This document shows, one piece after another, positions 37,726-52,868 of a stretch of 64,000 bases of DNA. The stretch covers positions 3,936,001 through 4,000,000 of the forward strand of contig NZ_CP047491.1 in the NCBI RefSeq assembly GCF_009931115.1. The letters run 5' to 3'. The DNA comes from Microbulbifer hydrolyticus. Lineage in GTDB: Bacteria > Pseudomonadota > Gammaproteobacteria > Pseudomonadales > Cellvibrionaceae. The position numbers were made by a program, and so were the translations under genes. Positions within the stretch are counted from its first letter, which is position 1. Each line of letters starts with the position of its first letter. Under the pieces are notes generated by a model that was not told the origin of the DNA, ran no database searches, and saw only the letters and a list, made by a program, of their open reading frames with translations.

Positions 37726-37806
37726 ACTTAACGCTCGCGGCACAGGCGAGCAATTTGTTGCGAGTCCAGCGCACAAAGTGCGCGATTGTGTCGGCACTTG
37801 TTAAAT
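37726..37806 (-). repeat. attC of cassette C30 (81 bp, short class)
   Basis: Cores ACTTAAC (37726-37732) and GTTAAAT (37800-37806), both matching consensus. The inner palindrome is around GCGCACAAAGTGCGC. This is the last recognisable attC on the left. Confidence 0.85.
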
Positions 37807-37811
37807 GGCTA

Positions 37812-38048
37812 TCAGCACCGCCCCTTAATATGCTTAATTAGATAATACGCCCACTTACCCAGCAACATTACTCCCGCGAATCCTGCGCAATAGGATAGAT
37901 ATAGCCATTCATATCCGGGCTTTAGGAATTCGGTAGTTCGCCCGACCCGATAAAGAACTTCAAAAATGATGCCCAAAAATAAAATACTAAATGCTAACGG
38001 GCTCATGGCTAAGGAAAAAATGAAAAACTTCTCTAATTTACGAAACAT
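37812..38048 (-). CDS. Cassette C30: two-TM membrane protein
   Basis: 78 residues from the ATG at 38048 (MFRKLEKFFIFSLAM). The frame is open to 38096, but the first 16 codons lie in the neighbouring attC. Two membrane segments: FFIFSLAMSPLAFSILFLGIIF and WLYLSYCAGFAGVMLLGKWA. No family recognised. Confidence 0.6.
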   Translation of the reverse strand: MFRKLEKFFIFSLAMSPLAFSILFLGIIFEVLYRVGRTTEFLKPGYEWLYLSYCAGFAGVMLLGKWAYYLIKHIKGRC

Positions 38049-38066
38049 CTTTAAAGCTATATGACG

Positions 38067-38147
38067 CTCTAATAACCGGTAGCCAAAGCACATCATAGGC
38101 TGCCCGGCGCGCGTCTTTTGCGCGCGAAGTTAATTAGTTTGTTAGGC
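38067..38147 (-). repeat. attC of cassette C29 (about 81 bp)
   Basis: The right core GTTAGGC (38141-38147) is perfect; the left core around CTCTAATAAC is degenerate. The interior closely resembles the attC at 38539, sharing ATAACCGG.AGCC and TAGGCTG.CCGGCG. Confidence 0.75.
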
Positions 38148-38150
38148 ATA

Positions 38151-38519
38151 CTATCCAACGAAATAGTCGAGAACATCAGAAATACGATTTTTGGGACAAC
38201 GGTATACCTCCGTGTAATGACAGCGCCTGCAGGACACCGTAGTGAATTTAGAAGACTGAATATCAAACATTTTGGCGAGCCCACTGCCTGCGGCATGAAA
38301 CTCTCCTATATCGTAGTTTTCATGGCCACACTTTGCACAAATATGCCTCATTTTCCCTTCGATCCTGAGCGCTGGATTTGGATTTGGCTGCGGTTCCGAG
38401 TCACGAATTTCAATCCACTTTTTGATCTCTTCAAACCGTTCCGGATATTCGCTTACATTTATCGAACAGTATGCTTGCTCCAGTTCATCTCTTGTGTATT
38501 TAGAATAATCAATTTTCAT
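38151..38519 (-). CDS. Cassette C29: zinc-ribbon protein, DUF2082-like
   Basis: 122 residues. The C-terminal half is a zinc ribbon of the DUF2082 type: CAKCGH, then a GEFHAAGSGLAKMFDIQ loop and FTTVSCRRCHYTEVYR. The N-terminal half has a helical YTRDELEQAYCSINVSEYPER segment. Such ribbons are thought to bind nucleic acid, but no role is established. Soluble. Confidence 0.75.
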   Translation of the reverse strand: MKIDYSKYTRDELEQAYCSINVSEYPERFEEIKKWIEIRDSEPQPNPNPALRIEGKMRHICAKCGHENYDIGEFHAAGSGLAKMFDIQSSKFTTVSCRRCHYTEVYRCPKNRISDVLDYFVG

Positions 38520-38538
38520 TTTCTGATGCCTGTAAATT

Positions 38539-38622
38539 GCCTAACGTTGCCATAACCGGCAGCCTGAGCATAGCGTAGGCTGTCCGGCGCCGCGAGACCC
38601 GAAGTTCATGGCCATGTTAAAT
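38539..38622 (-). repeat. attC of cassette C28 (84 bp, short class)
   Basis: Cores GCCTAAC (38539-38545) and GTTAAAT (38616-38622). The right core supplies the TAA stop of C28. Confidence 0.85.
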
Positions 38623-39132
38623 ATTTTCCCTGAGCAAGGTAACTTGCAAATCACCTCTGACCTTCTCCCCACTATAAAAGCGGCCAGTGCTTCCAATTTG
38701 TAACTCAGATAATTGAGCGCTAAAGGTATGAAAACCTTCTTTTTCAATTATGATGTAATTCTCCAACCCCGAGAATCCTTCATAAGGAGCGCAGTTCTCT
38801 ACCTTAAAATCTTCCTCTACTGCAGAAGGATCAAAGCCATATCTCGCCAACACAGGATTTAGAGTGAGTTTTCCATTAGGGTCAGTGGAGCCTTCAACTG
38901 ACCTTAGTCCAATGAAAGTATTCCACTCTTTTTTTGTTCTATCACCTTTTCGATCTAGCTTTACAATTCGAATTTTAGCTCCTTGAACCGGCTTGGCATT
39001 CGGCTCAATGAGAGAAATCTCTATAGGGGTCTCACTCTCTCCATCCCACGTAACCCCGCTGCAATCTTCAGCTGCGGAAATAATACTTATATGTGTGATA
39101 AAAAGTGCAGTAACTAGCTTAATTATTCTCAT
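38617..39132 (-). CDS. Cassette C28: secreted protein
   Basis: 171 residues with a signal peptide (MRIIKLVTALFITHISIISA). The mature part begins AEDCSGVTWDGES and has ...EISLIEPNAKPVQGAKIRIVKLD, which suggests a carboxypeptidase-regulatory-like beta sandwich (variable segment followed by DPNGKLTL). Two Cys (DCSG, ENCAP) could form a disulfide. Function unknown. Confidence 0.65.
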   Translation of the reverse strand: MRIIKLVTALFITHISIISAAEDCSGVTWDGESETPIEISLIEPNAKPVQGAKIRIVKLDRKGDRTKKEWNTFIGLRSVEGSTDPNGKLTLNPVLARYGFDPSAVEEDFKVENCAPYEGFSGLENYIIIEKEGFHTFSAQLSELQIGSTGRFYSGEKVRGDLQVTLLRENI

Positions 39133-39134
39133 AT

Positions 39135-39278
39135 ATTTAACGCCGCCAGCAGGGGCAGATTAATTTGTGCGTTTTTTGCGCGAAAATGGGAGCGCAGCGA
39201 CCCGCGCAAAACGTGCACAAGGTAAGCTGCCCCGCGGAGGGCCGCAGGCCTGGAGCGAATTGCCCGGCCTTGTTATGG
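39135..39278 (-). repeat. attC of cassette C27 (144 bp, long class)
   Basis: Left core ATTTAAC; right core GTTATGG, imperfect. The lateral hairpin is GGCCGCAGGCC. The right core supplies the C27 stop. Confidence 0.87.
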
Positions 39279-39617
39279 CCTCCACCATGTGGCGATCAGG
39301 AATAAAAAAGACACCACTGACAGAACCTGTGCATAAAGCCTATATCTTGCAAATTTCTTGAGTCTTGAATCACCCATTTTATTCCATTCACTCTTTCTCA
39401 TGAACTCTGCGTATTTTGTGAGCGAACTATCTCGTGACAAATCTTTAACAATTTGCGATTTTCCAAAAATTGGATACTTGGTAAATATTGATGGTGAGCC
39501 AAGTTCCTTGAATTTCATGGGGTGAGTCAGTTTTAACTGACTCAAGAAGCGACTGTGGCAGTACAGAGAAAATACTAATCCTATCCATACTGCAATGAAG
39601 GGTACTAAGTCAGTCAT
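39273..39617 (-). CDS. Cassette C27: two-TM protein, UspB-like layout
   Basis: 114 residues: an N-terminal membrane segment (FIAVWIGLVFSLYCHSRF), a basic cytoplasmic middle (HPMKFKELGSPSIFTKYP...) and a C-terminal segment (VLSVVSFLFLIATWW). The layout and the HP..F..LG.PS motif recall universal stress protein B-type proteins, but that is only an architectural likeness. Confidence 0.6.
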   Translation of the reverse strand: MTDLVPFIAVWIGLVFSLYCHSRFLSQLKLTHPMKFKELGSPSIFTKYPIFGKSQIVKDLSRDSSLTKYAEFMRKSEWNKMGDSRLKKFARYRLYAQVLSVVSFLFLIATWWRP

Positions 39618-39628
39618 TTCTTATCGTG

Positions 39629-39775
39629 CCATAACGCCGCCAGCAGGGGCAGCCTACTTTGTGCGCTTTGATGCGCGATAATGGGAGCGAAGCGACCCGC
39701 GCAACAAAGTGTACAAAGTAGGGCGTCCCGCGGAGGGCCGAAGGCCCGGAACCTTGCTGCCTGGCATTGTTATAG
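39629..39775 (-). repeat. attC of cassette C26 (147 bp, long class)
   Basis: Left core CCATAAC and right core GTTATAG, both with one or two mismatches. Lateral hairpin GGGCCGAAGGCCC. The longest site in the array. The right core supplies the C26 stop. Confidence 0.87.
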
Positions 39776-40255
39776 GTTTGGTGGATCATTCTTCTCAGTA
39801 ATGGAGAAATTCAAAAGCCTAACTCCAAATACAGACTTGGCTTGATTTTTTGACAAGTTAGCATTCCCAATAGAGAAACTTTCTCCATTAGAAATAATAT
39901 TAGAGCCTCCATAGGGATATTCTTTCCCTAAAAATTCCAGCAAAGTGCTACAACTTGGAGTTTCAAATACAAGCGACTTGCCTTTATTCAACTTAAAAAA
40001 TAAGCCCTCTTCAACTTTTTGACTCCATTTGAAGTACCAATCACCACCTCCACAGCTACGATCCACATATACGCACTGAACGGGTATAACTTTGGATTCA
40101 CTGCCACTCGCGGTTTCGATTGAGGCAGAAAGCGAAAGATCATAGATCTTTTTTTCTGGAAATTGTTCAGAGTTTGTAGCGCAAGCTACTACTGTTGCTG
40201 TAGCCACACACCCACTTAATAAGAACGCTGGGACGAGTAGAAAGAGTTTTTTCAT
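39770..40255 (-). CDS. Cassette C26: lipoprotein
   Basis: 161 residues with a lipoprotein signal peptide and lipobox LSGC (Cys16). The mature part has four further Cys, including CVYVDRSCGGGDWYFKW. No family recognised. Confidence 0.65.
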   Translation of the reverse strand: MKKLFLLVPAFLLSGCVATATVVACATNSEQFPEKKIYDLSLSASIETASGSESKVIPVQCVYVDRSCGGGDWYFKWSQKVEEGLFFKLNKGKSLVFETPSCSTLLEFLGKEYPYGGSNIISNGESFSIGNANLSKNQAKSVFGVRLLNFSITEKNDPPNL

Positions 40256-40262
40256 GCGTGAC

Positions 40263-40380
40263 CTATAACGCCGCGCTCAGCCGCGGCTAACGTTGCGCAC
40301 TTTATGCGCGATAATGGGAGCGAAGCGACCGCGCATAAAGTGCGCAACGTTAGGCGTCGGTCCGCAGCGCTTTGTTAGGA
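40263..40380 (-). repeat. attC of cassette C25 (118 bp, middle class)
   Basis: Left core CTATAAC, right core GTTAGGA (40374-40380). No lateral hairpin. The C25 reading frame runs 31 bp into it before stopping. Confidence 0.83.
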
Positions 40381-40907
40381 GTCTGCGCACTAATATAGCC
40401 GGACTCGAGCCTTAGATCGCCCTCGACAAAATCCAAACTAAACTCGGCGGTTGATACTTGACCGACTGAATCCACTATTTTCACATAGAACATATGGTCA
40501 TCAAGCGCCCTACAAGTCGAGCCAACTTCAAATGACCAAGTGACATAAGGAGCTACAGCATATTCATTTCCCGACCATTTTTCGGCATTAATTGGGAGCT
40601 GGACCTCAGCACCCTCTTTATCAACAAATTTCGCGGTGACATCGACTCCATGCGGAGTCTGCACAATGAAAGTAGATCTATCTTCATTTAGAAAACCAAC
40701 CGGAATAATTGGAGGCAGAGGTATTACTGGAGAAACTGCGATTGACTTAACTTCTTCAGGACAATTTACATGCACTCTGTAGTCAGACTTCCAATTTTCC
40801 TTAGTAACTATGCTTATTGATAGTCGATTATATTTCGAAGCTGCACTTACAGCACAACCAGATAGAGCTATAAAAGAAAGCACAACAAGTAAACGCGAAA
40901 TCTTCAA
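40350..40907 (-). CDS. Cassette C25: lipoprotein with attC-encoded tail
   Basis: 185 residues, TTG start. Leftward, AGGAGG sits four bases before the TTG and is formed at the cassette boundary from the GTTAGGA core. Lipobox LSGC (Cys18). The mature part looks beta-rich (VHVNCPEEVKSIAVSPVIPLPP; VTWSFEVGSTCRALDDHMFYVKIVD). The last ten or so residues (...PNKALRTDA) are encoded by the attC. Function unknown. Confidence 0.65.
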   Translation of the reverse strand: MKISRLLVVLSFIALSGCAVSAASKYNRLSISIVTKENWKSDYRVHVNCPEEVKSIAVSPVIPLPPIIPVGFLNEDRSTFIVQTPHGVDVTAKFVDKEGAEVQLPINAEKWSGNEYAVAPYVTWSFEVGSTCRALDDHMFYVKIVDSVGQVSTAEFSLDFVEGDLRLESGYISAQTPNKALRTDA

Positions 40908-40913
40908 TGGGCC

Positions 40914-41029
40914 TCCTAACGCCGCAATCAGACGCGGCTTACTTTGTGCACTTTTTGTACAAAAATGGGAGTGCAGCGACCGTGCAAAAAGTGCACAAAG
41001 TAAGACGTCGGCTGCATTGCATGTTAGCT
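40914..41029 (-). repeat. attC of cassette C24 (116 bp, middle class)
   Basis: Left core TCCTAAC, right core GTTAGCT. Main stem around ACTTTGTGCACTTTTT and AAAAAGTGCACAAAGT. The right core supplies the C24 stop. Confidence 0.85.
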
Positions 41030-41446
41030 GTATCTCTCAGACTCGAAATCTGCGTTGGACCACGACTTGCCCATTTTGGGACTTTCTAACTTCCAGGTAG
41101 AAAAGACACAGCCGTACGACTGAGATACTTCACACATAAACTCTACCCAGGCAATGAAATCTGATTTTTCAAATTCGACTCCATAAGGGCGTGTAGTTCC
41201 AGTGAGTTGAAAATAGCCCTTTTCATCAGGCCCAGAAATATCTACCTCATAGTTTTCAGAGAGCTGCTTAGATTGCTTTTCTATGCTCTCTTTATCATTT
41301 CCAAAATGCTCGAAGTCTAGTGCAAAAATTGTATTGCCTGACACTCCATCTTGATGGAGTTGCTCCCAAGCCATTTTGGACTCATCAATCTTCCTATTTA
41401 GAATTCTCTCGTAGTACTCAGACCATATCTTTTGAGGATCTTCCAT
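41024..41446 (-). CDS. Cassette C24: RraB-like protein
   Basis: 140 residues from the ATG at 41446, with AAGGA five bases upstream; the frame is open to 41545 only through the attC. The layout resembles the RraB family (regulator of ribonuclease E activity B): ALDFEHFGNDKESIEKQSKQL, a Gly-Tyr-Phe strand, TTRPYG, and WVEFMCEVSQSYGCVFSTW. RraB binds and inhibits RNase E in E. coli. Assignment is by pattern only. Soluble and acidic. Confidence 0.6.
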   Translation of the reverse strand: MEDPQKIWSEYYERILNRKIDESKMAWEQLHQDGVSGNTIFALDFEHFGNDKESIEKQSKQLSENYEVDISGPDEKGYFQLTGTTRPYGVEFEKSDFIAWVEFMCEVSQSYGCVFSTWKLESPKMGKSWSNADFESERYS

Positions 41447-41461
41447 AACGTTCCTTCGGAC

Positions 41462-41605
41462 AGCTAACGCCGCCAGCAGGGGCAGCTTACCTTGTGCGCG
41501 TTTTGCGCAAAAATGGGAGCGCAGCGACCCGCGCAAAATGTGCACAAGGTAAGCTGTCCCGCGGAGGGCCAGAGGCCCGGAGTATTCTGCCTAGCATTGT
41601 TAATT
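41462..41605 (-). repeat. attC of cassette C23 (144 bp, long class)
   Basis: Left core AGCTAAC, right core GTTAATT. Lateral hairpin GGGCCAGAGGCCC. The right core supplies the C23 stop. Confidence 0.88.
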
Positions 41606-41932
41606 GGGACCGCGTGGCTTCGAACAGATACACACGTTTTCCTTCGCAGAGCAAACTTTGGTTAATGGCGGCTGGCACTGAACTGGAACATTTCGATCAC
41701 CCACGAAAGATTCGTCATCTTCTTTGCCAGTTGACTCGAGTACAGCCTTAACGATTCTCTTGTCAGCCTCAAACCCCGCTTTCATACCAGAATGATCGTA
41801 GGTTTTTGTGTCTAGCACTGATTTATCACGGTTTTCAAAATCGTTAAATTTTTTATCGACGGCCATCCCGAGAACTGTACAACCAGGAAGGACTAAAGAT
41901 ATACATAGAATAAAAAAAACTGAAGATTTCAT
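41600..41932 (-). CDS. Cassette C23: small lipoprotein
   Basis: 110 residues. Lipobox LPGC (Cys18) after MKSSVFFILCISLV. Several Cys near the C terminus (CQPPLTKVC, CSAKENVCIC in part) suggest disulfides. No family recognised. Confidence 0.62.
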   Translation of the reverse strand: MKSSVFFILCISLVLPGCTVLGMAVDKKFNDFENRDKSVLDTKTYDHSGMKAGFEADKRIVKAVLESTGKEDDESFVGDRNVPVQCQPPLTKVCSAKENVCICSKPRGPN

Positions 41933-41948
41933 CTATACCCGAATTTAC

Positions 41949-42092
41949 AATTAACGCCGCCGGCAGGGGCAGCTTACCTTGTGCGCGATTTGCGCAAAAA
42001 TGGGAGCAAAGCGACCTGCGCAAAACGTGCACAAGGTAAGCTGTCCCGCGGAGGGCCGAAGGCCCGTAGCAAATTGCCCGGCCTTGTTATAC
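41949..42092 (-). repeat. attC of cassette C22 (144 bp, long class)
   Basis: Left core AATTAAC, right core GTTATAC (42086-42092). Lateral hairpin GGGCCGAAGGCCC. Confidence 0.88.
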
Positions 42093-42103
42093 GGCACTGC
42101 ACT

Positions 42104-42361
42104 TCAACGTTTCCTGTCATCGCCCGCCTTCATAATATCGCGGATTAAATTTCCTGCAGTTAGCCACATTGACGCCCACATACATACCAATAAGCAAAGC
42201 AAGTACACAATCTCTGGTAGCTCTAATCCATGCGCAGAAGATAACCACTCACGAAGCATATAAACGCCGTAGCCAGAAATAATTATTGCAGGGACCGAGA
42301 TAAAACAAGAAACGCCGATAACTCGCCATAAAGTTGGATTCGTAGATTCGCCTTTGACAAT
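42104..42361 (-). CDS. Cassette C22: two-TM protein without a canonical start
   Basis: The only long leftward frame in this cassette reads (I)VKGESTNPTLWRVIG... to ...IRDIMKAGDDRKR and stops with TGA at 42104-42106. An in-frame TAA at 42362-42364 lies directly before an ATT codon. No ATG, GTG or TTG precedes the first membrane segment (VIGVSCFISVPAIIISGYGVYM); the second is IVYLLCLLVCMWASMWL. So either ATT initiates (85 residues), or the start has been lost and the gene is broken. Function unknown. Confidence 0.5.
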   Translation of the reverse strand: MVKGESTNPTLWRVIGVSCFISVPAIIISGYGVYMLREWLSSAHGLELPEIVYLLCLLVCMWASMWLTAGNLIRDIMKAGDDRKR

Positions 42362-42384
42362 TTACTCAATTCTCTCGCAATGCC

Positions 42385-42465
42385 GTATAACGCCAAGCTT
42401 TGGGGCGGTCTGCGAAGCAGGCCGTCCCAGCAGCCGAAGGCTGCGACAACAGCGCCTTGTTAGGC
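42385..42465 (-). repeat. attC of cassette C21 (81 bp, short class)
   Basis: Left core GTATAAC, right core GTTAGGC. The main stem is GGGGCGGTCTGC/GCAGGCCGTCCC. It also carries a small lateral hairpin CAGCCGAAGGCTG, unlike the other short sites. The right core supplies the C21 stop. Confidence 0.83.
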
Positions 42466-42792
42466 ATTTGCACGGAGTTTACTACGCAAACGATTTTGTG
42501 TGGTTTCATTACCGCTTCCCCACGCGTCAAAAAGCCCAAACCAGTACAGCCGTTCGTTTAATGTTAAGCCGCCAATATTGTCTATTGCGACACTTTTAAA
42601 TTTTTGGAATTCAGAATGGAACTTGTTTGAGGCATCCGCTTCTTGGAACCAAACATTCCCATGCCATTTTCTAATTAAGTCAGTAAGCACCTCTATATCT
42701 TTATCATCTTGCTTCCACTCTCCCACGCAGTGCGAGAGATTCTCTCTCAAATCGCTTTCGGGAATGGAGTTTACTAACTCATCAAGATTCAT
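42460..42792 (-). CDS. Cassette C21: soluble protein of unknown function
   Basis: 110 residues from the ATG at 42792 (MNLDELVNSIPE); the frame is open to 42882 only through the attC. Helical and acidic, with Trp-rich motifs (EWKQDDKDIEVLTDLIRKW; ERLYWFGLFDAWGSG). No signal peptide or membrane segment. No family recognised. Confidence 0.6.
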   Translation of the reverse strand: MNLDELVNSIPESDLRENLSHCVGEWKQDDKDIEVLTDLIRKWHGNVWFQEADASNKFHSEFQKFKSVAIDNIGGLTLNERLYWFGLFDAWGSGNETTQNRLRSKLRANA

Positions 42793-42798
42793 TGAGAT

Positions 42799-42942
42799 GC
42801 CTAACGCCGCCGGCAGGGGCAGTTTACCTTGTGCACGTTTTGCGAAAAAATGGGAGCGTAGCGACCTGCGCAAAACGTGCACAAGGTAAGCTGTCCCGCG
42901 GAGGGCCGAAGGCCCGAAGCAAACTGCCCGGCATTGTTATAA
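42799..42942 (-). repeat. attC of cassette C20 (144 bp, long class)
   Basis: Left core GCCTAAC, right core GTTATAA. The main stem is near perfect over about 28 bp (CTTGTGCACGTTTTGCG on one arm). Lateral hairpin GGGCCGAAGGCCC. Confidence 0.9.
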
Positions 42943-42950
42943 GTGGCCCA

Positions 42951-43205
42951 CTACTTATGTTTGAAGTATTTATACAGCTCCACGAAAGAGGAACCAACGA
43001 GAAAAACAAACAACCCTAGCCATACAAGAAGGCTTTGCCAATAGGTACCCTCGCCAGGTGTTTTTACATGGGTTTCATGTGAGCGCCTTCCGACGGATTC
43101 CACTTCTCCTGATGTAAAACCGCTGATAAAAAACATTAACGGAAGCACGGCGATAGCAACGCACACTATGAAATTCAGAAAATGATTCGGCTTCTTCTCA
43201 CTCAT
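42951..43205 (-). CDS. Cassette C20: two-TM protein
   Basis: 84 residues. Membrane segments FLNFIVCVAIAVLPLMFFISG and LLVWLGLFVFLVGSSFVELY flank a polar loop (VESVGRRSHETHVKTPGEG). Charged ends. Function unknown. Confidence 0.6.
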   Translation of the reverse strand: MSEKKPNHFLNFIVCVAIAVLPLMFFISGFTSGEVESVGRRSHETHVKTPGEGTYWQSLLVWLGLFVFLVGSSFVELYKYFKHK

Positions 43206-43218
43206 ATCTTTATCTTAC

Positions 43219-43362
43219 TTATAACGCGCACAGCAGGGGCGGCTTACCTTGTGCGCCTTTTGCGCGAAAATCGAAGCGTAGCGACCCGCGCAAAAGGTGC
43301 ACAAGGTAAGACGTCCCGCGGAGGCCCGAAAGGCTGTAGCAAACTGCCTGTGATTGTTATGG
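43219..43362 (-). repeat. attC of cassette C19 (144 bp, long class)
   Basis: Left core TTATAAC, right core GTTATGG. The lateral hairpin is degraded here (GGCCCGAAAGGCTG). Confidence 0.86.
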
Positions 43363-43380
43363 TTAATTGGCACGAGGTAC

Positions 43381-43824
43381 CTACTTATTACTGTCATTTA
43401 CGAGTTTGGAAAGCACCAACTCCCTTGTTTCGAGACACAAAGCGCTGTCGGTAGTTATGGATCCATTGCCATTCAGCGTTACCGACGGACTTGGCTTCAC
43501 ATTAAGAAATATCCGTGAATTTTCGATGTGTTCTTTTGAAACGCACATAGATAGGAGCACACTTCCGAAACCTGGACGATCTAATGCTGGAGTGACCTCT
43601 GCCACCACATTATTGTTTCCATCGATAATATTTAAGTAAGCGGAGTCGATATATCGATTTTTATTCTCAATAAACTCTTTGAGAAGTATCTGGACCGATG
43701 TACAAGATTGCCCCTGATGCTGGAACACCATTACATCTCGGACAAATTCCTCTGCCCCAGACTCTTCACATGCAAAGCTATAATTTGCAATAACAGCAAC
43801 GATCCCCAGAAGTATATTTTTCAT
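43381..43824 (-). CDS. Cassette C19: secreted protein
   Basis: 147 residues with a signal peptide (MKNILLGIVAVIANYSFA). The mature part has four Cys (CEESG, CTSVQ, CVSKE, CLETRE), probably disulfide-bonded after export, and a repeated beta pattern. Function unknown. Confidence 0.63.
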   Translation of the reverse strand: MKNILLGIVAVIANYSFACEESGAEEFVRDVMVFQHQGQSCTSVQILLKEFIENKNRYIDSAYLNIIDGNNNVVAEVTPALDRPGFGSVLLSMCVSKEHIENSRIFLNVKPSPSVTLNGNGSITTDSALCLETRELVLSKLVNDSNK

Positions 43825-43839
43825 TGTGCTCTCTATGAA

Positions 43840-43958
43840 CCATAACGCCGCGCACAGGGGCGGCTTACTTTATGCGCGTTTTGCGCGAAAATAGGAGCGC
43901 AGCGACCAGCGCAAGACGTGCATAAAGTAAGCCGTCCCTTTGCTGCGCTTTGTTAGGC
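43840..43958 (-). repeat. attC of cassette C18 (119 bp, middle class)
   Basis: Left core CCATAAC, right core GTTAGGC. No lateral hairpin. The right core supplies the C18 stop. Confidence 0.85.
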
Positions 43959-44384: not shown

Positions 44385-44405
44385 CAGAACCTAGCTCTCT
44401 AAGCC

Positions 44406-44549
44406 GCCTAACGCCCGCAACAGGGGCGACCAATGCTATGCACATTTTGTGCGAAACTGGGAGCGCAGCGACCTGCACAAAATGTGCATGGCGTTGGGCG
44501 TCCCGCGGAGGCCCGAAGGGCCGTAGCATACTGCTTGCGCTTGTTAGGT
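44406..44549 (-). repeat. attC of cassette C17 (144 bp, long class)
   Basis: Cores GCCTAAC and GTTAGGT, both matching consensus. It belongs to the subtype with GCAACAGGGGCGACCAAT. Lateral hairpin GGCCCGAAGGGCC. The right core supplies the C17 stop. Confidence 0.9.
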
Positions 44550-46500: not shown

Positions 46501-46513
46501 GGGCTCTCAGGAA

Positions 46514-46633
46514 CCATAACGCCCAGCGCAGGCGCAGCCAACGCGGAGCGCCTTTTGTGTTAATGTTTGAGCGACAGCGAGTAACACAAAAGGCGCGTAG
46601 TGTTGGCTGTCGCTCTGCCGCTGCTTGTTATGA
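46514..46633 (-). repeat. attC of cassette C13 (120 bp, middle class)
   Basis: Left core CCATAAC, right core GTTATGA. Third of the three related CGCCCAGCGCAGG sites. The right core supplies the C13 stop. Confidence 0.87.
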
Positions 46634-47050
46634 GTCCGGACGCAGCTTACGGAGTTCGGCGTACTTCAACTCGCTTAACTGCTCAAATATCTTTGCAGCA
46701 TGAGTGTATTTCCCGGTTAGACAGCGATCTACCACTCCCTCTTTATCCACTACGAATAGATAGGTTGAAGCTACGTGCAATTTTGGCCCGCCAAAGTGTT
46801 CAGGCGATTGTGACCGCACAACAGCATCTTTCTCTATATTTCCTTTATACAATTCATAGAGTTCAAAATTCGCTGCGATATACCAGGTATCCTTACGTTG
46901 ATCAATCCATGCTTTTACGACCTTGCCTCTGAAAATAGCTACATCATCGAGAGCAAATATCTCTTCCGCGGTCTTCTGATCTCCACAACTTCCGAAGTAA
47001 GCATGAGTAGAGCTACAGAAAAATAGAAGGAAAAAAATGACCATTCGCAT
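46628..47050 (-). CDS. Cassette C13: secreted protein, TIMP/NTR-like
   Basis: 140 residues from the ATG at 47050; the upstream ATG at 47065 lies in the attC core. A signal peptide (MRMVIFFLLFFCSSTHA) is followed by YFGSCGDQKTAEEIFALDDVAIFRGKV. The pattern, with Cys near the N terminus, a FRGKV strand, LYKGN, and STYLFVVDKEGVVDRC, recalls bacterial TIMP-like/netrin-related domains. Family likeness is tentative. Confidence 0.58.
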   Translation of the reverse strand: MRMVIFFLLFFCSSTHAYFGSCGDQKTAEEIFALDDVAIFRGKVVKAWIDQRKDTWYIAANFELYELYKGNIEKDAVVRSQSPEHFGGPKLHVASTYLFVVDKEGVVDRCLTGKYTHAAKIFEQLSELKYAELRKLRPDS

Positions 47051-47061
47051 GATACTAAGAC

Positions 47062-47205
47062 TCATAACGCCGCGAGCAGCGGCAGCTTGCTTTGGGCGCT
47101 TTATGCGCGAAAATGGGAGCGAAGCGACCTGCGCATAAAGTGCACAAAGTAAGCTGTCCGGTGAAGGCCCGCAGGGCCGGAACGAAATGCCTCGCCTTGT
47201 TATAA
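47062..47205 (-). repeat. attC of cassette C12 (144 bp, long class)
   Basis: Left core TCATAAC, right core GTTATAA. Subtype GCGAGCAGCGGCAGCTTGC, shared with the site at 51673. Lateral hairpin GGCCCGCAGGGCC. Confidence 0.88.
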
Positions 47206-47211
47206 ACCGAA

Positions 47212-47430
47212 TTACGCTGGAACCTCACTATCTCGCGGTAGGTCTTTTTTGAACATTAAAAAAACAACATAAACTAGACCAAAAATTGGAATGATAGAGA
47301 ACACTGCTCCAAGCAACGCAGCTAATACCGGTGTCTCGGTTTTACGTCTACCAAGGTAGTAGCTGACAGCAGCTATCACTACCGCAAATATGGTTATGAA
47401 TTGCCCGATGACCGTCAGACTTATATTCAT
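47212..47430 (-). CDS. Cassette C12: two-TM protein
   Basis: 72 residues. Membrane segments VIGQFITIFAVVIAAVSYYLG and VLAALLGAVFSIIPIFGLVY, joined by RRKTETP. The C terminus is polar. Function unknown. Confidence 0.58.
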   Translation of the reverse strand: MNISLTVIGQFITIFAVVIAAVSYYLGRRKTETPVLAALLGAVFSIIPIFGLVYVVFLMFKKDLPRDSEVPA

Positions 47431-47461
47431 TGGAGTGCCTCTTTATTCTCGTGACTAGGGT

Positions 47462-47605
47462 TTATAACGCCGCCAGCAGGGGCAGCTTACCTTGTGCGCT
47501 TTTTGCGCGAAAATGGGAGCACAGCGACCCGCGTAAAAAGCGCACAAGGTAAGCTGTCCCGCGGAGGGCCGAAGGCCCGGAGCAAACTGCCTGGCTTTGT
47601 TAAAA
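47462..47605 (-). repeat. attC of cassette C11 (144 bp, long class)
   Basis: Left core TTATAAC, right core GTTAAAA. Lateral hairpin GGGCCGAAGGCCC. Confidence 0.88.
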
Positions 47606-47621
47606 ATTATGGCTCGCGGCT

Positions 47622-47870
47622 TCACCCTGGAAACATTAGCGCCAAAATTACAGCTAGCACAAGATACAAAATTATTGAACCGAGCCCAATCAATATTGCG
47701 TAAACGTACTTTCGGCTAGTGGGAATATCTTTGGTAAAGATAGCCATATTTAGTGCTACTGCGAGGCCCCCACAAAGCCCTCCAATTGCTCCCCCGACTG
47801 ATACCAATGCTATTGGCAGCAGGCAGACCACCTGTTCATACCACTTCAAAGATTTTGATTCTCGTTCCAT
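47622..47870 (-). CDS. Cassette C11: two-TM protein
   Basis: 82 residues from the ATG at 47870, preceded by GAGAAG; the GTG at 47897 lies inside the attC. Membrane segments VVCLLPIALVSVGGAIGGLC (with more Gly-rich sequence) and VYAILIGLGSIILYLVLAVI. Function unknown. Confidence 0.6.
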   Translation of the reverse strand: MERESKSLKWYEQVVCLLPIALVSVGGAIGGLCGGLAVALNMAIFTKDIPTSRKYVYAILIGLGSIILYLVLAVILALMFPG

Positions 47871-47884
47871 AAACTTCTCGAGAT

Positions 47885-48028
47885 TTTTAACGCCCACAGC
47901 AGGGGCAGCTTACCTTGTGCGCATTTTGCGCGAAAATGGGAGCGTAGCGACCTGCGTAAATTGTGCACAAGGTAAGCTGTCCCGCGGAGGCCCGGAGGGC
48001 CGTAGCATACTGCCTGTGATTGTTAGGC
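47885..48028 (-). repeat. attC of cassette C10 (144 bp, long class)
   Basis: Left core TTTTAAC (one mismatch), right core GTTAGGC. Lateral hairpin GGCCCGGAGGGCC. Confidence 0.88.
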
Positions 48029-48033
48029 TGGAC

Positions 48034-48399
48034 CTAGCAACTGTGGGTACGGTCAAACTCCTTTAGCTCTTGAGGTATCTCTCCGTAAATCTTTGCTCTT
48101 CTTATGGACTCTTTAGCTTTTGCCACTTTACCCGAATCAATGTATCTACTGGCTTTTGAAATGTGATACTCGAAGCGCCGCTTCCTTATGAGGTCGCCCT
48201 CATTTTGGAACCTATTTTCAGCGATCCAGAAACCAACAAATGTAAATGGAACGCCAAGCCAAATAAACCAATCATTCTTTGTTAAGAATGCAACTCCGAA
48301 AGCTATGGAGAATGCGACGACTACTGAAAAGGCAGCACCGATACACCCGATACCATTATTACTCGAAGGTTGCCTGTATCCGTATCTTTTGTACCACAT
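48034..48399 (-). CDS. Cassette C10: two-TM protein with basic tail
   Basis: 121 residues. Membrane segments IGAAFSVVVAFSIAFGVAFL and DWFIWLGVPFTFVGFWI, then a basic, helical cytoplasmic tail (IRKRRFEYHISKASRYIDSG). Function unknown. Confidence 0.6.
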   Translation of the reverse strand: MWYKRYGYRQPSSNNGIGCIGAAFSVVVAFSIAFGVAFLTKNDWFIWLGVPFTFVGFWIAENRFQNEGDLIRKRRFEYHISKASRYIDSGKVAKAKESIRRAKIYGEIPQELKEFDRTHSC

Positions 48400-48409
48400 C
48401 TCTAAATTA

Positions 48410-48553
48410 GCCTAACGCCGCCAGCAGGGGCAGCTTACCTTGTGCGCGTTTTGCGCGAAAATGGGAGCGCAGCGACCCGCGCAAAAAGTGCACAAGGTAA
48501 GCTGTCCCGCGGAGGGCCGAAGGCCCGGAGCATCCTGCCTGGCTTTGTTAACT
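48410..48553 (-). repeat. attC of cassette C9 (144 bp, long class)
   Basis: Left core GCCTAAC, right core GTTAACT. Lateral hairpin GGGCCGAAGGCCC. The right core supplies the C9 stop. Confidence 0.9.
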
Positions 48554-48859
48554 GCTGAATGCAACGTAGGCCACCAAGCTGACGATACCGATGAAAAGAA
48601 GCGAGTAAATTACGTACACGACTGCAAACGTGGCTCGCCAGCCTTTACCATCCTGCTTTTGACAGCCCTTGCCATACGCTACTAAAGGACCTGCAACTGC
48701 GGCATAGTAACCCAACGCCAATAGGAAGCTCTTGCCGAGTAAGCGAATAATTTCATCATCAGTGGACAGAGTATTCAGAAAAAGCATGGCTATCGCCATA
48801 CATAAAACGAAGTACGATACCCCGCCGATAACATGATCTTTGATAATACTTATTTTCAT
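48548..48859 (-). CDS. Cassette C9: three-TM protein
   Basis: 103 residues. Three membrane segments: VSYFVLCMAIAMLFLNTL, FLLALGYYAAVAGPLVAYG and VVYVIYSLLFIGIVSLVAYV, with a basic loop (CQKQDGKGWR). Function unknown. Confidence 0.6.
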   Translation of the reverse strand: MKISIIKDHVIGGVSYFVLCMAIAMLFLNTLSTDDEIIRLLGKSFLLALGYYAAVAGPLVAYGKGCQKQDGKGWRATFAVVYVIYSLLFIGIVSLVAYVAFSS

Positions 48860-48888
48860 TATCTATCCGGACTTTGCCGACTAATTGC

Positions 48889-49032
48889 AGTTAACGCCCA
48901 CAGCAGGGGCGGCTTACCTTGTGCGCTTTTTGCGCGAAAATGGGAGCGTAGCGACCCGCGCAAAACGTGCACAAGGTAAGCCGTCCCGCGGAGGCCCGAA
49001 GGGCCGTAGCAAACTGCCTGTGTTTGTTAAGG
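48889..49032 (-). repeat. attC of cassette C8 (144 bp, long class)
   Basis: Left core AGTTAAC, right core GTTAAGG. Lateral hairpin GGCCCGAAGGGCC. Confidence 0.88.
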
Positions 49033-49036
49033 CTTG

Positions 49037-49327
49037 CTAGCAACCAGAGCCGAAAAACCCAGAAACACTATTGGGAGCCATGTATAGCGCCTGCCCACTG
49101 TACCAAGCCATGATAAGTAGCACTATAAACACGGTAGTCACACCCACTCCGATCATCAAAGAGTTACCTGAAGCCCGATAACTCGCCGCCACAGACAATA
49201 AAAAACTTGCTCCAGCTATGGAAGTAACAGTTTGCCGAACCGAAATGTAACCACCACACTGGTAGAAACCAAGGAACACAACGCCGGCCAAAGCTACAAA
49301 CATTGAGATAATTGCGAGTAGTTTCAA
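49037..49327 (-). CDS. Cassette C8: three-TM protein
   Basis: 96 residues. Membrane segments LLAIISMFVALAGVVFLGFY, VTSIAGASFLLSVAASY and MIGVGVTTVFIVLLIMAWY. Function unknown. Confidence 0.6.
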   Translation of the reverse strand: MKLLAIISMFVALAGVVFLGFYQCGGYISVRQTVTSIAGASFLLSVAASYRASGNSLMIGVGVTTVFIVLLIMAWYSGQALYMAPNSVSGFFGSGC

Positions 49328-49343
49328 TGTAGTTCTCGTGGTG

Positions 49344-49487
49344 CCTTAACGCCCGCAGCAGGGGCGGCTTATCTTGTGCGCATTTGGCGCGAAAATGGGA
49401 GTGTAGCGACCTGCGCAAAATGTGCACAAGGTAAGCCGTCCCGCGGAGGCCCGAAGGGCCGTAGCAAACTGCCTGCGTTTGTTAGTG
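49344..49487 (-). repeat. attC of cassette C7 (144 bp, long class)
   Basis: Left core CCTTAAC, right core GTTAGTG. Lateral hairpin GGCCCGAAGGGCC. The right core supplies the C7 stop. Confidence 0.88.
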
Positions 49488-49904
49488 AGTTTGACCACAG
49501 TACTGGTCTCCGTGCTCAACAAATGAGCCCTGGTAATTTTTGGATAGCCAGCTCTTAAGTGATTCTGCCAGTTCAATTGCAGGTGCGTCACCTGTTCTTG
49601 CTTTGTCATATGTTGCTACTGTAAAGCAAGATCTATCTAAAACGTTGTTGACAGAAAACTCATAGCTTTGGCTATTTATGTATATTGCGAAAAGGAAGTT
49701 TTCTTTAACCTCCGGCTTCATATTCCCGCCACCTTCCTGCAGCTTTTTAAAGCCATGCTCTTTGGCGTACTCATCTAAAGCCGGCAAGAGCTCAGCTTTT
49801 CTTATGTTTCCTGCTGAAAAATGAAACCCGGCTATTGCAGGGTAAACTTCTCTAGAGCATGAGACGACTATAAAAGCAAAAAATATTAGGAATAATGCTC
49901 TCAT
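49482..49904 (-). CDS. Cassette C7: lipoprotein
   Basis: 140 residues from the ATG at 49904; the longer frame to 49988 is attC. The short lipoprotein signal MRALFLIFFAFIVVSC gives Cys16. The mature part has a helix-rich start (AELLPALDEYAKEHGFKKL) and beta strands (NFLFAIYINSQSYEFSV). Function unknown. Confidence 0.62.
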   Translation of the reverse strand: MRALFLIFFAFIVVSCSREVYPAIAGFHFSAGNIRKAELLPALDEYAKEHGFKKLQEGGGNMKPEVKENFLFAIYINSQSYEFSVNNVLDRSCFTVATYDKARTGDAPAIELAESLKSWLSKNYQGSFVEHGDQYCGQTH

Positions 49905-49915
49905 CTCTAATTGCT

Positions 49916-50059
49916 CACTAACGCCCGCAACAGGGGCGACCAATACTGTGCACATTTTGTGCGAAATTGGGAGCACAGCGACTCGCACAAAATGTGCATA
50001 GTGTTGGGCGTCCCACGGAGGCCCGCAGGGCCGGAGTCAACTGCTTGCGCTTGTTATGA
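49916..50059 (-). repeat. attC of cassette C6 (144 bp, long class)
   Basis: Left core CACTAAC, right core GTTATGA. Subtype GCAACAGGGGCGACCAAT. Lateral hairpin GGCCCGCAGGGCC. The C6 frame ends inside it, 23 bp before the site's outer end. Confidence 0.88.
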
Positions 50060-50357
50060 GTACCTCCAGGAGGAGCAGCGCAAAGAAGAGAAAAAAGAAT
50101 ATGAATGATACCTCATACCTTCTTTTTACCCGTATTTTCGACGCTAATACTTCCTTTGGTAGATCCTCTCGCTCCAGTTCCGCATTGCCAAATATCAGCC
50201 CCCAATAATAATAGGAACGATTAAAAGGCGAAAAATACTTTTTGTGAAGATCCGGTCGTTCGTTCTTTACAGCCTTTAAAAGTCTCCCACCTGAAACCGT
50301 AGCAAAGAGAAACAACCCAAACCCCAAAGTAAAACAAAGTATTCCTATAACTAGCAT
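50037..50357 (-). CDS. Cassette C6: two-TM protein with attC-encoded end
   Basis: 106 residues. Membrane segments LVIGILCFTLGFGLFLFATV and VSFIFFFLFFALLLLEVLI with a basic middle (NERPDLHKKYFSPFNRSYYY). The last seven or so residues (ITSASS) lie in the attC. Function unknown. Confidence 0.6.
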   Translation of the reverse strand: MLVIGILCFTLGFGLFLFATVSGGRLLKAVKNERPDLHKKYFSPFNRSYYYWGLIFGNAELEREDLPKEVLASKIRVKRRYEVSFIFFFLFFALLLLEVLITSASS

Positions 50358-50372
50358 GCTCTCAGTACGTAC

Positions 50373-50450
50373 TCATAACGCCGCCAACACCGGCCGAGCG
50401 TAGCGAGGTCCAGCGCACGCAGTGCGCGATGGTGCTTGGCATTGTTAAGT
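50373..50450 (-). repeat. attC of cassette C5 (78 bp, short class)
   Basis: Left core TCATAAC, right core GTTAAGT. Its inner part AGCGCACGCAGTGCGCGAT resembles the site at 37726. The right core supplies the C5 stop. Confidence 0.83.
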
Positions 50451-50723
50451 GTTCGACTCATGATGTGCCTTAATGTTTTTGTAGCACTCTTCGCAAACAA
50501 CCGAGAAGTCGCAGAATTTACAAAAACGCTCCGTTTTATCTTCTTCTTGCAAGAACATGTGCTCACAGGCATAACACCAGCCTTGAAGATCACCTGGCTC
50601 CGAACTATTTTCGATAAAGCCTAAAGGAGCACCATTATTGCTTATCAAATGGCAGCAGACCGTAGCAGCTATACCCTTACCATGTTTCTCACAATCTATG
50701 TTCAATTCGTCGATTTCCATCAT
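50445..50723 (-). CDS. Cassette C5: Cys-rich metal-binding protein
   Basis: 92 residues (tandem ATG; 50720 is the alternative). Ten Cys: CEKHGKG..TVCCHL, then WCYACE, then FCKFC and CEEC. The HG..C.HL and WC..CE signature occurs in a widespread uncharacterised family likely to bind zinc. Soluble. Role unknown. Confidence 0.68.
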   Translation of the reverse strand: MMEIDELNIDCEKHGKGIAATVCCHLISNNGAPLGFIENSSEPGDLQGWCYACEHMFLQEEDKTERFCKFCDFSVVCEECYKNIKAHHESNT

Positions 50724-50728
50724 TGGAC

Positions 50729-50812
50729 ACTTAACGTTTCAATAAGGGGCCGCCGCAGTTCGGCGGTCCCAGCACGCGCTTTTTGCGTGCGATCTTGATT
50801 GGCTTGTTATGC
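50729..50812 (-). repeat. attC of cassette C4 (84 bp, short class)
   Basis: Left core ACTTAAC (consensus), right core GTTATGC. Interior GGGGCCGCCGCAGTTCGGCGG. The right core supplies the C4 stop. Confidence 0.83.
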
Positions 50813-51070
50813 ATGCATTAAGATGGTTGCTAAACTCCAAACGCCAACCCCTAATAGTGCTGCAGCTACTAAACTGCCTAATGGTAAGAATACTTTTTTA
50901 GTTAATGCAGCCGTTTTTTCAATACCATATTTGTTTACCCACATTTTTGCCTTAGGGCTTGTTTTAAGATAATTCATCATTTTTTCTTCACTTATAAGAT
51001 GAATGATATTTCGTATTAAAAAATATCCCCCGGCTAAAACTGCCAATACGGGAAATAGTAGTTGTTCCAT
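50807..51070 (-). CDS. Cassette C4: two-TM protein
   Basis: 87 residues. Membrane segments LLFPVLAVLAGGYFLIRNI and LGSLVAAALLGVGVWSLATI with a basic loop (KTSPKAKMWVNKYGIEK). The gene is the most AT-rich of the set. Function unknown. Confidence 0.6.
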   Translation of the reverse strand: MEQLLFPVLAVLAGGYFLIRNIIHLISEEKMMNYLKTSPKAKMWVNKYGIEKTAALTKKVFLPLGSLVAAALLGVGVWSLATILMHA

Positions 51071-51095
51071 TTAATCGTCTCCTTTTTTATTTTTT

Positions 51096-51215
51096 GCATA
51101 ACGCCCCGCTCACCTGCACATACTGCGGAGAGCGTTTTTGTGTGAAAATGGAGCGCAGCGACACACACAAAAACGAGCGTAGCAGTATGTGTCAGAGTGC
51201 AGCGGTTTGTTATGC
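51096..51215 (-). repeat. attC of cassette C3 (120 bp, middle class)
   Basis: Left core GCATAAC, right core GTTATGC. The arms ACATACTGCGG... and ...CAGTATGTGT differ from the other families, so it is a singleton. The right core supplies the C3 stop. Confidence 0.85.
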
Positions 51216-51662
51216 ATTTGCTAGCTCTCTAAACTGTTTTAAAGGAAAATCGTGCTCCACCCAACGCTCCTTATATTGTTCTGGACCTATATTTTGATGA
51301 ATATTCCACAGTACCGTTGATATTTGTTGAATAATTCTCTGCGTTTTGCATTTGCCAGATAGAACCGATTTGTAATCTGATTCCGGATGCATATTCCAGC
51401 TCGCCCAATCACTAAACCAACGAGCTTCGTAAGATGCCACTTCGTTTTCTACCGAAACTAAAAACTGTAATTCACCTGGCTCATCCATAAACACAACTTT
51501 CGATTCTTTAACTCCGTTTTTTAAGTCAACAGCCATTTGAGCAAGTTCACCGAGACTATCATGCAGATATGAAACTGCCGAGTCGCATGATTTTTTCCCG
51601 TCAGTTAGTACGACAGTCGCCCATCCGTGATCTTCAAGCTTGTATTCAATTGCGAACTTCAT
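51210..51662 (-). CDS. Cassette C3: soluble protein of unknown function
   Basis: 150 residues. MKFAIEYKLEDHGWATVVL..KKSCDSAVSYLHDSLGELAQ, then a Trp-rich part (ARWFSDWASWNMHPES) and a helical end. No signal peptide or membrane segment. No family assigned. Confidence 0.6.
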   Translation of the reverse strand: MKFAIEYKLEDHGWATVVLTDGKKSCDSAVSYLHDSLGELAQMAVDLKNGVKESKVVFMDEPGELQFLVSVENEVASYEARWFSDWASWNMHPESDYKSVLSGKCKTQRIIQQISTVLWNIHQNIGPEQYKERWVEHDFPLKQFRELANA

Positions 51663-51672
51663 GTGATTTTAT

Positions 51673-51816
51673 GCATAACGCCGCGAGCAGCGGCAGCTTG
51701 CTTTGGGCACTTTATGCGCAAAAATGGGAGCGAAGCGACCTGCGCATAAAGTGCACAAAGTAAGTTGTCCGGTGGAGGCCCGAAGGGCCGGAACGAACTG
51801 CCTCGCCTTGTTAGAA
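51673..51816 (-). repeat. attC of cassette C2 (144 bp, long class)
   Basis: Left core GCATAAC, right core GTTAGAA. Subtype GCGAGCAGCGGCAGCTTGC shared with 47062. Lateral hairpin GGCCCGAAGGGCC. Confidence 0.88.
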
Positions 51817-51818
51817 AT

Positions 51819-52190
51819 TTACATCTCGTATATATATGTCCTTGATTCGCTACGCCAAAAAGTAACTACGCTCAAATATTTTTCCCCAGTTTTTAATGAT
51901 TCCCTTAAAACTGTGTACTCGGAAAAATCGTCAAATTCTTTTTTTTTGGAAAATCCAACATAAGCCTTCCTTATCTGAGCCAGTTCATCTTTTGTATATT
52001 CATTCAAAATCTCGCGATATTTTTTAGCTACCCTGGCATTTGCGCAAAATAGCGCAATTTCGACATCTCCACTCTCTAAGCCCAACAGGAAAGTGTCCCA
52101 AGCCAACTCGGGAGTTTTGCAGTTTTCTTCAGCTTGCGCGTGTAACGCAGGGAAACAGAAAATAACCAGAAAAAAAATTATACGGTACAT
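51819..52190 (-). CDS. Cassette C2: secreted protein
   Basis: 123 residues from the ATG at 52190, which has GGAG six bases upstream; the longer frame to 52331 is attC, and the ATG at 52202 is possible. Signal peptide MYRIIFFLVIFCFPALHAQA. The mature part (CKTPELAWDTFLLGLESGDVEIAL...) looks like the small NTF2-like/DUF4878 type. Role unknown. Confidence 0.62.
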   Translation of the reverse strand: MYRIIFFLVIFCFPALHAQAEENCKTPELAWDTFLLGLESGDVEIALFCANARVAKKYREILNEYTKDELAQIRKAYVGFSKKKEFDDFSEYTVLRESLKTGEKYLSVVTFWRSESRTYIYEM

Positions 52191-52207
52191 ACGAATCTCC
52201 ATTTCAT

Positions 52208-52351
52208 TTCTAACGCCCGCAACTGGGGCGACCAATGCTATGCACATTTTGTGCGAAACTGGGAGCGTAGCGACCCGCACAAAATGTGAATAGCGTTGGG
52301 CGTCCCGCGGAGGCCCGAAGGGCCGGAGCATCCTGCTTGCGTTTGTTAAGC
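52208..52351 (-). repeat. attC of cassette C1 (144 bp, long class)
   Basis: Left core TTCTAAC, right core GTTAAGC (consensus). Subtype GCAACTGGGGCGACCAAT. Lateral hairpin GGCCCGAAGGGCC. Confidence 0.88.
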
Positions 52352-52352
52352 A

Positions 52353-52775
52353 CTAGATTTGGCACTCGTATACGGTACAGCGATACTCGGTACCCAACCC
52401 GGGCTTTTCCTTTGTGATTTCAAATGTTGCAAGCTTTCTGCTTGGCTGCAAGCGCCAGTAGATATCAATAATTATAACTCGCCCGTCATCCTTTTCTTTA
52501 TAGGTGATATTTTCCGGTGACGAATACTCTTTGTACTTCCTTATAAGCTCATAGAGATCATCATTAGTAGATGGCATGCCATTAAGTGTAATTTTTGTCC
52601 AAGGCTCAGCATATGGTTCATAAACAATATGGCGCATGTAGGGGCCAGTGGGAAGAGTAGCCTCAAGATCCAGTTCGCCTTTTACTGAAGCCGATTTTTG
52701 GGTGAGGTAAATCCCTATGGCACCACATAGCAAAATCCCTACAGCAAACAGAATTATTAGATTTTTAACTTGCAT
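52353..52775 (-). CDS. Cassette C1: membrane-anchored protein
   Basis: 140 residues, first cassette. One N-terminal membrane anchor (NLIILFAVGILLCGAIGIYL), then a periplasmic domain with beta strands (KITLNGMPSTNDDLYELI; DDGRVIIIDIYWRLQPS) and two Cys near the end. Function unknown. It lies 10 bp inside the terminal recombination core. Confidence 0.62.
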   Translation of the reverse strand: MQVKNLIILFAVGILLCGAIGIYLTQKSASVKGELDLEATLPTGPYMRHIVYEPYAEPWTKITLNGMPSTNDDLYELIRKYKEYSSPENITYKEKDDGRVIIIDIYWRLQPSRKLATFEITKEKPGLGTEYRCTVYECQI

Positions 52776-52785
52776 GCTCTCGTGT

Positions 52786-52868
52786 GCTTAACAGTTATAT
52801 CGTGGGCGTGTGCATATCTGCACACACTCAAATAGTGTCTATATCTGCACACACATGTGCAGATATAT
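52786..52868. other. Terminal recombination core with flanking inverted repeats (possible attI relic)
   Basis: The core GCTTAAC (52786-52792; GTTAAGC leftward) ends the array, without an attC on its right. Next come an inverted repeat GTGTGCA-TATC-TGCACAC (52808-52825) and a second with 11-bp perfect arms (ATATCTGCACA/TGTGCAGATAT, 52841-52866). They share a 14-bp direct repeat ATATCTGCACACAC at 52814 and 52841. This is where attI would lie in a complete integron. The second hairpin may instead terminate the 52873 gene. Confidence 0.5.

Follow-up and report, generated by a model that had tools for sequence, protein, structure and literature searches.

Our subject is a long array of integron cassettes on the chromosome of Microbulbifer hydrolyticus. 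It lies within a stretch of 64,000 nucleotides (the window), which is positions 3936001-4000000 of a genome that is assembled as one contig of 4,209,307 bases (G000:C1 in our numbering). Reading leftward from ubiD, there is a gene for a protein that we call GG-W, then palindromic repeats, then a core sequence that resembles an integron attachment site (attI), and then the first of 30 cassettes (Table 1).

An earlier, sequence-only reading of the window had described 30 leftward genes alternating with 30 sites that resemble attC, the recombination site of cassettes. This description holds up. Our hand list has 30 attC sites of 78-147 bp, all on the minus strand, between 37726 and 52351. The cassettes abut without gaps, and 29 of the 30 contain an open reading frame (ORF) of at least 72 amino acids. 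In cassette 22, the longest ORF of the cassette body (42093-42384) has just 51 amino acids; perhaps this is a decayed gene. Of the array span that had been proposed, the 30 contiguous cassettes stand but the right edge does not, as the first cassette begins at the cut point, 52791. When we scanned the 29 cassette proteins against Pfam, one was over the cut-off (Zn_ribbon_13, in cassette 29).

Models of attC sites do score these repeats, as the same reading required. Our covariance model, built from 17 long attCs, recovers all 30 sites (E ≤ 0.0096); this is circular for the 17 training sites, which match by construction, and the other 13 have E values from 1.1e-24 to 0.0096. Elsewhere on the minus strand within 30000-60000, the top hit of the model has E = 0.93. 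(We made two models: R1 has no base pairs, with its hairpins misaligned, and is a sequence model, while R2 is a structure model.) A regular expression for attC found 29 sites in the array, as compared to a mean of 0.8 and a maximum of 4 in 200 Markov shuffles, and had one further minus-strand match outside the array, at 25779. Other approaches were less sensitive. attC sites have a general consensus, and a strict search of the window for RYYYAAC...GTTRRRY gave 9 pairs and missed most of the attCs. An initial scan for complementarity had little power to discriminate, with 27 of its 55 candidates inside the array at the loosest threshold, and an Rfam scan of the window found no family at the gathering score. 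We also folded 14 of the 30 attCs as DNA: eight sites of at least 116 bp had z scores of -2.6 to -8.8 relative to shuffles, and six sites of 78-84 bp were less clear (z of -0.7 to -3.0). Just one site (48410-48553) was folded as both strands, and the more stable fold was that of the strand opposite the genes (-46.7 vs. -41.9 kcal/mol).

Table 1. Features of the array and its head, in window coordinates. Cassette rows rest on the ORF list, the attC regular expression with a boundary check, and the covariance model, with the hand list used where the regular expression failed.
Feature	Position	Strand	Basis or remark
Whole array of 30 cassettes, running leftward from the cut point of the attI-like site (52791)	37726..52791	-	hand list, ORFs, covariance model
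GG-W gene, 133 amino acids	52873..53274	-	candidate marker of integrase-less platforms
Imperfect palindromic repeats between GG-W and core	52809..52872	.	sequence comparison
attI-like core, 21 bases; cut G^TT between 52792 and 52791	52788..52808	-	identity with attI region of IntI-2
Cassette 1 (attC 52208-52351)	52214..52791	-	
Cassette 2 (attC 51673-51816)	51679..52213	-	
Cassette 3 (attC 51096-51215)	51102..51678	-	577/577 bp identical to cassette 2 of intI-2 integron
Cassette 4 (attC 50729-50812)	50735..51101	-	
Cassette 5 (attC 50373-50450)	50379..50734	-	
Cassette 6 (attC 49916-50059)	49922..50378	-	
Cassette 7 (attC 49344-49487)	49350..49921	-	572/572 bp identical to cassette 3 of intI-2 integron
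Cassette 8 (attC 48889-49032)	48895..49349	-	
Cassette 9 (attC 48410-48553)	48416..48894	-	479/479 bp identical to cassette 1 of intI-2 integron
Cassette 10 (attC 47885-48028)	47891..48415	-	
Cassette 11 (attC 47462-47605)	47468..47890	-	
Cassette 12 (attC 47062-47205)	47068..47467	-	96% identity to cassettes in arrays D, E
Cassette 13 (attC 46514-46633)	46520..47067	-	
Cassette 14 (attC 45888-46007)	45894..46519	-	
Cassette 15 (attC 45331-45450)	45337..45893	-	
Cassette 16 (attC 44935-45078)	44941..45336	-	396/396 bp identical to cassette 2 of intI-1 array
Cassette 17 (attC 44406-44549)	44412..44940	-	99.2% identity to cassette 2 of array G
Cassette 18 (attC 43840-43958)	43846..44411	-	
Cassette 19 (attC 43219-43362)	43225..43845	-	
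Cassette 20 (attC 42799-42942)	42805..43224	-	
Cassette 21 (attC 42385-42465)	42391..42804	-	
Cassette 22 (attC 41949-42092), 51-amino-acid ORF only	41955..42390	-	
Cassette 23 (attC 41462-41605)	41468..41954	-	
Cassette 24 (attC 40914-41029)	40920..41467	-	
Cassette 25 (attC 40263-40380 in hand list; regular expression cut at 40291)	40269..40919	-	hand list, covariance model
Cassette 26 (attC 39629-39775)	39635..40268	-	hand list, covariance model
Cassette 27 (attC 39135-39278)	39141..39634	-	
Cassette 28 (attC 38539-38622)	38545..39140	-	
Cassette 29 (attC 38070-38147), Zn_ribbon_13 protein; missed by regular expression	38076..38544	-	hand list, covariance model
Cassette 30 (attC 37726-37806), array end	37732..38075	-	hand list, covariance model

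The sequence-only reading had also stated that no integrase lies beside the array, and we agree. The window contains no match to the integron integrase (IntI) profile TIGR02249, including between the array and ubiD. In the full single-contig genome, two matches exceed the profile's cut-off of 265 bits: IntI-1 at 1.42 Mb (1421951-1422892, 410 bits) and IntI-2 at 1.29 Mb (1290774-1291709, 367 bits). The nearest intact IntI is 2.57 Mb from the array in contig coordinates. Both proteins align over nearly their full length with the solved IntI4 (2a3v), and, by eye, both have kept what we take to be the catalytic residues. So the array lacks the adjoining intI of a complete integron and, with its 30 attC sites by our own covariance model and no integron integrase nearby, it is by definition a cluster of attC sites lacking an integrase (CALIN), as had been claimed.

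On the other hand, the reading had considered the recombination platform to be missing from the high-coordinate end and GG-W to be a mere flanking gene, and these views need to be revised. An attI-like site lies at that end with GG-W beside it, as in 15 relatives, and GG-W is part of the array's head. All 21 bases of the core, of which 17 are on the platform side of the cut, are identical to the attI region of IntI-2 (1.292 Mb), and the site is in the canonical place, just before the first cassette. Thus, judging from its sequence, this CALIN is not headless. A weak scan of the minus strand from 52700 to 53400 found no sigma-70-like site for a cassette promoter (Pc).

The rest of the genome has more platforms of this sort. 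There are at least nine attC clusters of the same kind (among the best 150 matches; small clusters may be missing). With the cassettes counted by the regular expression, these are arrays A (282-286 kb, 5 cassettes), B (396-398 kb, 3), C with IntI-2 (1292-1306 kb, 18), D with IntI-1 (1423-1458 kb, 61), E (1523-1542 kb, 32), F (2308-2312 kb, 5), G (2821-2825 kb, 7), H (3511-3523 kb, 20), and I, the array in the window (29, with one missed), for a total of 180 cassettes. The window array and both of the intI-bearing arrays share one attC family. In all nine arrays, the first cassette is immediately preceded by an attI-like site, albeit by a shorter variant in F. In other words, there are two intact intI genes versus eight attI-like sites that head attC arrays, plus the variant. 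The heads are of several types. In type 1 (D, E, B), the heads have in common a stretch of 123-251 bases with AAGCC..GGC repeats (72-75% identity). Those of type 2 (C, A) terminate in GCCCACGATATAACTGTTA, and in type 3 (I, H, G) the core is preceded by palindromic repeats, with 88% identity over 65 bases between I and H.

A search for the core pattern gave 9 matches in this genome, of which eight head an array, and none for the reversed control. The ninth, at 3614953 (L214), has degenerate repeats and no attC was found behind it; it could be an empty platform or a relic. Across 48 genomes of the genus, there were 105 matches vs. 6 for the reversed control. We examined 96 of the 105, and 83 of these have at least 2 kb of downstream sequence. 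An attC-like site lies within 3 kb downstream of the core in 69 of the 83 (opposite strand: 3 of 83). In ten single-contig genomes of the genus, 6 of 34 cores are beside an intact intI, one is beside a broken intI, and 27 adjoin no IntI among the matches listed, although among these 27 the core at G001:2515314 seems to be a coincidence within coding sequence. We also saw a further type of attI-like site, with GGTCG..ACGATATAACTG before the cut and partly beside intI, in G014, G015, and G017 (L244, L246, L247, L249-L253, and L255).

We read the hemY-ubiD interval in 34 of 47 relatives (in the other 13, the genes are on separate contigs, one gene is lacking, or the genome was not included). attCs are present in 15 of the 15 intervals with an intact GG-W next to ubiD and in 0 of the 19 without an intact GG-W at E ≤ 0.001, one of which has a broken GG-W (Fisher exact test, P = 5e-10, uncorrected for kinship). 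All 15 have the same order of GG-W, repeats, core, and then, by eye, a differing first cassette, and there is no IntI in these intervals among the matches listed. At the DNA level, only 3 of the 30 cassettes in the window match anything in the arrays of the 15 relatives. From these comparisons, the platform stays and its cargo turns over. At the array's far end, a gene for a protein of 119 amino acids (37346-37705) has no match in the hemY-ubiD intervals of the 34 relatives. The UbiD of the window, with a 94% match to M. aggregans, is that of a Microbulbifer. In one genome, UbiD is in two overlapping pieces (G034:C1:2850920-2852379), which is a frameshift or a sequencing error.

Beyond the genus, the picture is patchier. 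Using a profile of 25 GG-W sequences and 390 genomes drawn from the order, we found GG-W in 23 genomes (3 of them Microbulbifer) and in 11 of 143 genera. IntI is present at E ≤ 1e-60 in 171 of 390 genomes (apparently the same draw) and in 19 of the 23 that carry GG-W (Fisher exact test, P = 1.3e-4, again uncorrected for kinship). We read 20 GG-W loci from outside the genus, of which ten have at least 7.9 kb behind GG-W and ten end within 2.5 kb. A CTGTTA core with strict repeats occurs within 420 bases in 7 of the 20 (L305, L306, L307, L309, L310, L311, and L316); at some of these seven, the adjoining ORFs do not look UbiD-like by eye. (The window's own repeat units do not fit the strict motif.) Behind GG-W, chains of 8-16 attC-like sites on the same strand are found in 5 of the 10 long loci, as compared to Markov maxima of 4-8: L305, from another genus of the same family, and L308 and L321, and L314 and L318, from two further families. 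The Microbulbifer covariance model confirms attCs in L305, L317, and L318 and one in L321, but none in L308 or L314. Finally, the core of the GG-W platform resembles the attI of the same genome's intI in G145, G316, G369, and M. hydrolyticus itself (G000), and the agreement is significant over 12 genomes (P = 0.003). As judged from these loci, it is only in and near Microbulbifer that there is good evidence for the full module.

These comparisons bear on a rival account, which is that an ordinary integron lost its intI, so that the attI and cassettes were left behind and GG-W is an unrelated neighbor. Such decay does occur in this genome: array A has an attI of the IntI-2 type, and beside it is a broken piece of intI (286656-286922, L021). 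Between the window array and ubiD, though, there is no IntI match; GG-W, repeats, and core are found without intI at the same locus in 15 other Microbulbifer genomes; and GG-W has repeats and a core in the 7 loci from other genera. Given this recurrence without intI, loss would need to have spared GG-W and the site each time. We consider this account to be unlikely.

Copies in other arrays suggest that the window array has exchanged cassettes. The first three cassettes of the IntI-2 integron are matched at 100% identity by window cassettes 9, 3, and 7, respectively, and the second cassette of the IntI-1 array is matched likewise by window cassette 16. Window cassettes 17 and 12 have less exact copies in array G and in arrays D and E. 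In whole-cassette comparisons with a boundary check, the identity of the shared cassettes starts and stops at G^TT. For six shared pairs, the agreement over the 60 bases downstream is 0.22-0.47; upstream, where attCs abut, it is 0.28 to 0.93. So the sharing is likely due to site-specific recombination and not to segmental duplication. Because new cassettes enter an integron next to attI, the simplest reading is that an IntI copied cassettes from scattered positions in the window array into attI-2, but the direction may be the reverse, or the cassettes may have a common outside source. The IntI-1 array (1423247-1458120; L019, L020; about 61 cassettes) also repeats identical cassettes within itself (17, 23, and 57; 20 and 50; 22 and 37).

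Large arrays are often stable, so one might instead propose that recombination at the window array is over and that the identical cassettes date from older exchange or from segmental duplication. That the identity is perfect, ends at the cut points, and gives way to differing downstream flanks argues against this inert store, as does the finding that the shared cassettes are the first ones of the intI-2 integron. We doubt this explanation slightly more than the loss of intI. Another published route to CALINs, in which a distant IntI places cassettes at a chance GTT (an attG, which is neither attI nor attC) and the array grows from there (the available parts of PMC8618304 and PMC12444791), is very improbable here, as the entry site is attI-like in sequence, with 21 bases that match the attI-2 region, the head is conserved across species, and the covariance model places attCs in none of the 19 hemY-ubiD intervals that lack GG-W.

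We therefore return to the view that the array is an integron platform that lacks an integrase gene, has an attI and a GG-W gene of its own, and would be served in trans; on the sequence evidence, we think that this is quite probable. IntI made elsewhere in the genome likely recombines the window's cassettes, and most simply this would be IntI-2, which is the best candidate, while IntI-1 is possible. The sequence-only reading had raised mobilization by a distant integrase as a possibility, and the two intact IntI and the four cassettes with perfect copies in intI-bearing arrays support it. We infer that an IntI acts on the window's attI-like site today and that cassettes passed from the window array to the intI-2 integron and not the reverse.

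As for GG-W, it might bind the repeats and help or regulate the site. Its gene is single copy in M. hydrolyticus. The predicted fold, of fair confidence, has no clear structural match, and the protein's links to known families are weak: 7 of the 25 GG-W proteins have weak matches to DUF5710 (PF18974; best E = 0.0024), and the window's protein has none, so no assignment is possible. We suggest that GG-W may act at the repeats, either by binding DNA or as a regulator. A broader proposal is that there is a dedicated module of GG-W, repeats, and attI-like site, which is present in Microbulbifer and partly so in other genera of the order. With it, a genome could operate many platforms with just one or two integrases, as a distributed integron, with IntI serving these docking sites in trans and GG-W marking, bending, or controlling them. 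We offer this tentatively, with a little more doubt than confidence.

Several observations weigh against these views. The relatives are not independent, so the Fisher tests overstate the evidence. Platforms G and H have similar repeats but no GG-W beside them, which would fit GG-W acting in trans or being a bystander; G015 has a repeat-type site and no GG-W was found there; and in G041 the GG-W gene next to ubiD is broken and the locus has no attC. Two of the 19 intervals without GG-W have a single regular-expression hit for attC each (L145, L154). Among the 83 cores of the genus with enough downstream sequence, 14 have no attC by regular expression within 3 kb, although two of these (L220 and L221) gain one attC each by the covariance model and two others (TCGATAAA, L217 and L234) look like coding coincidences. 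In the order, 4 of the 23 genomes with GG-W have no intI at E ≤ 1e-60. Five of the ten long GG-W loci lack a chain, and their GG-W matches are weak, partial, or interrupted, but GG-W is also interrupted or split in L318 and L321, which have chains. Neither the CTGTTA core nor the strict repeats were found at the chain loci L308, L314, L318, and L321. The agreement between cores is not significant within Microbulbifer (P = 0.17), and G010 has a core of the IntI-2 type with only a type-1 intI among the matches listed.

How does this compare to known systems? Integrons are described as having one intI, typically one nearby attI, and one array. Like a sedentary chromosomal integron, the window array has an attI-like site, ordered cassettes, and the attC family of the intI-bearing arrays, but it has no intI in cis, and its platform gene is GG-W. 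Like other CALINs, it is an array of attCs without a neighboring intI. It differs in having its own attI-like site, a conserved head gene, and 30 attCs, versus a mean of almost 6 per CALIN (PMC9024848, in the part available). According to the available part of PMC12444791, CALINs and their mobilization in trans by a functional IntI are already in print, and the CALINs of Xanthomonas are likewise repeated chromosomal loci away from the intI locus; that part places no attI at their heads and mentions no head gene. The origins that have been proposed for CALINs, which are off-target insertion, loss of intI, and rearrangement (PMC8618304, in the part available), do not predict a conserved attI-like site and head gene. 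In the literature on attI, CALINs, and missing integrases, titles and the openings of abstracts gave no description of such a platform, and in our searches no paper had Microbulbifer, integron, and attC together. So while the notion of CALINs that are mobilized in trans is not new, the dedicated platform seems to be.

On a single chromosome, M. hydrolyticus thus has two intact integrases but eight arrays headed by attI-like sites, with signs of recent exchange among the arrays. If our interpretation is correct, then many of the CALINs that are now classed as remnants may belong to a functioning system with multiple sites. GG-W would then be a handle for finding such arrays and a candidate for a new factor in integron recombination.

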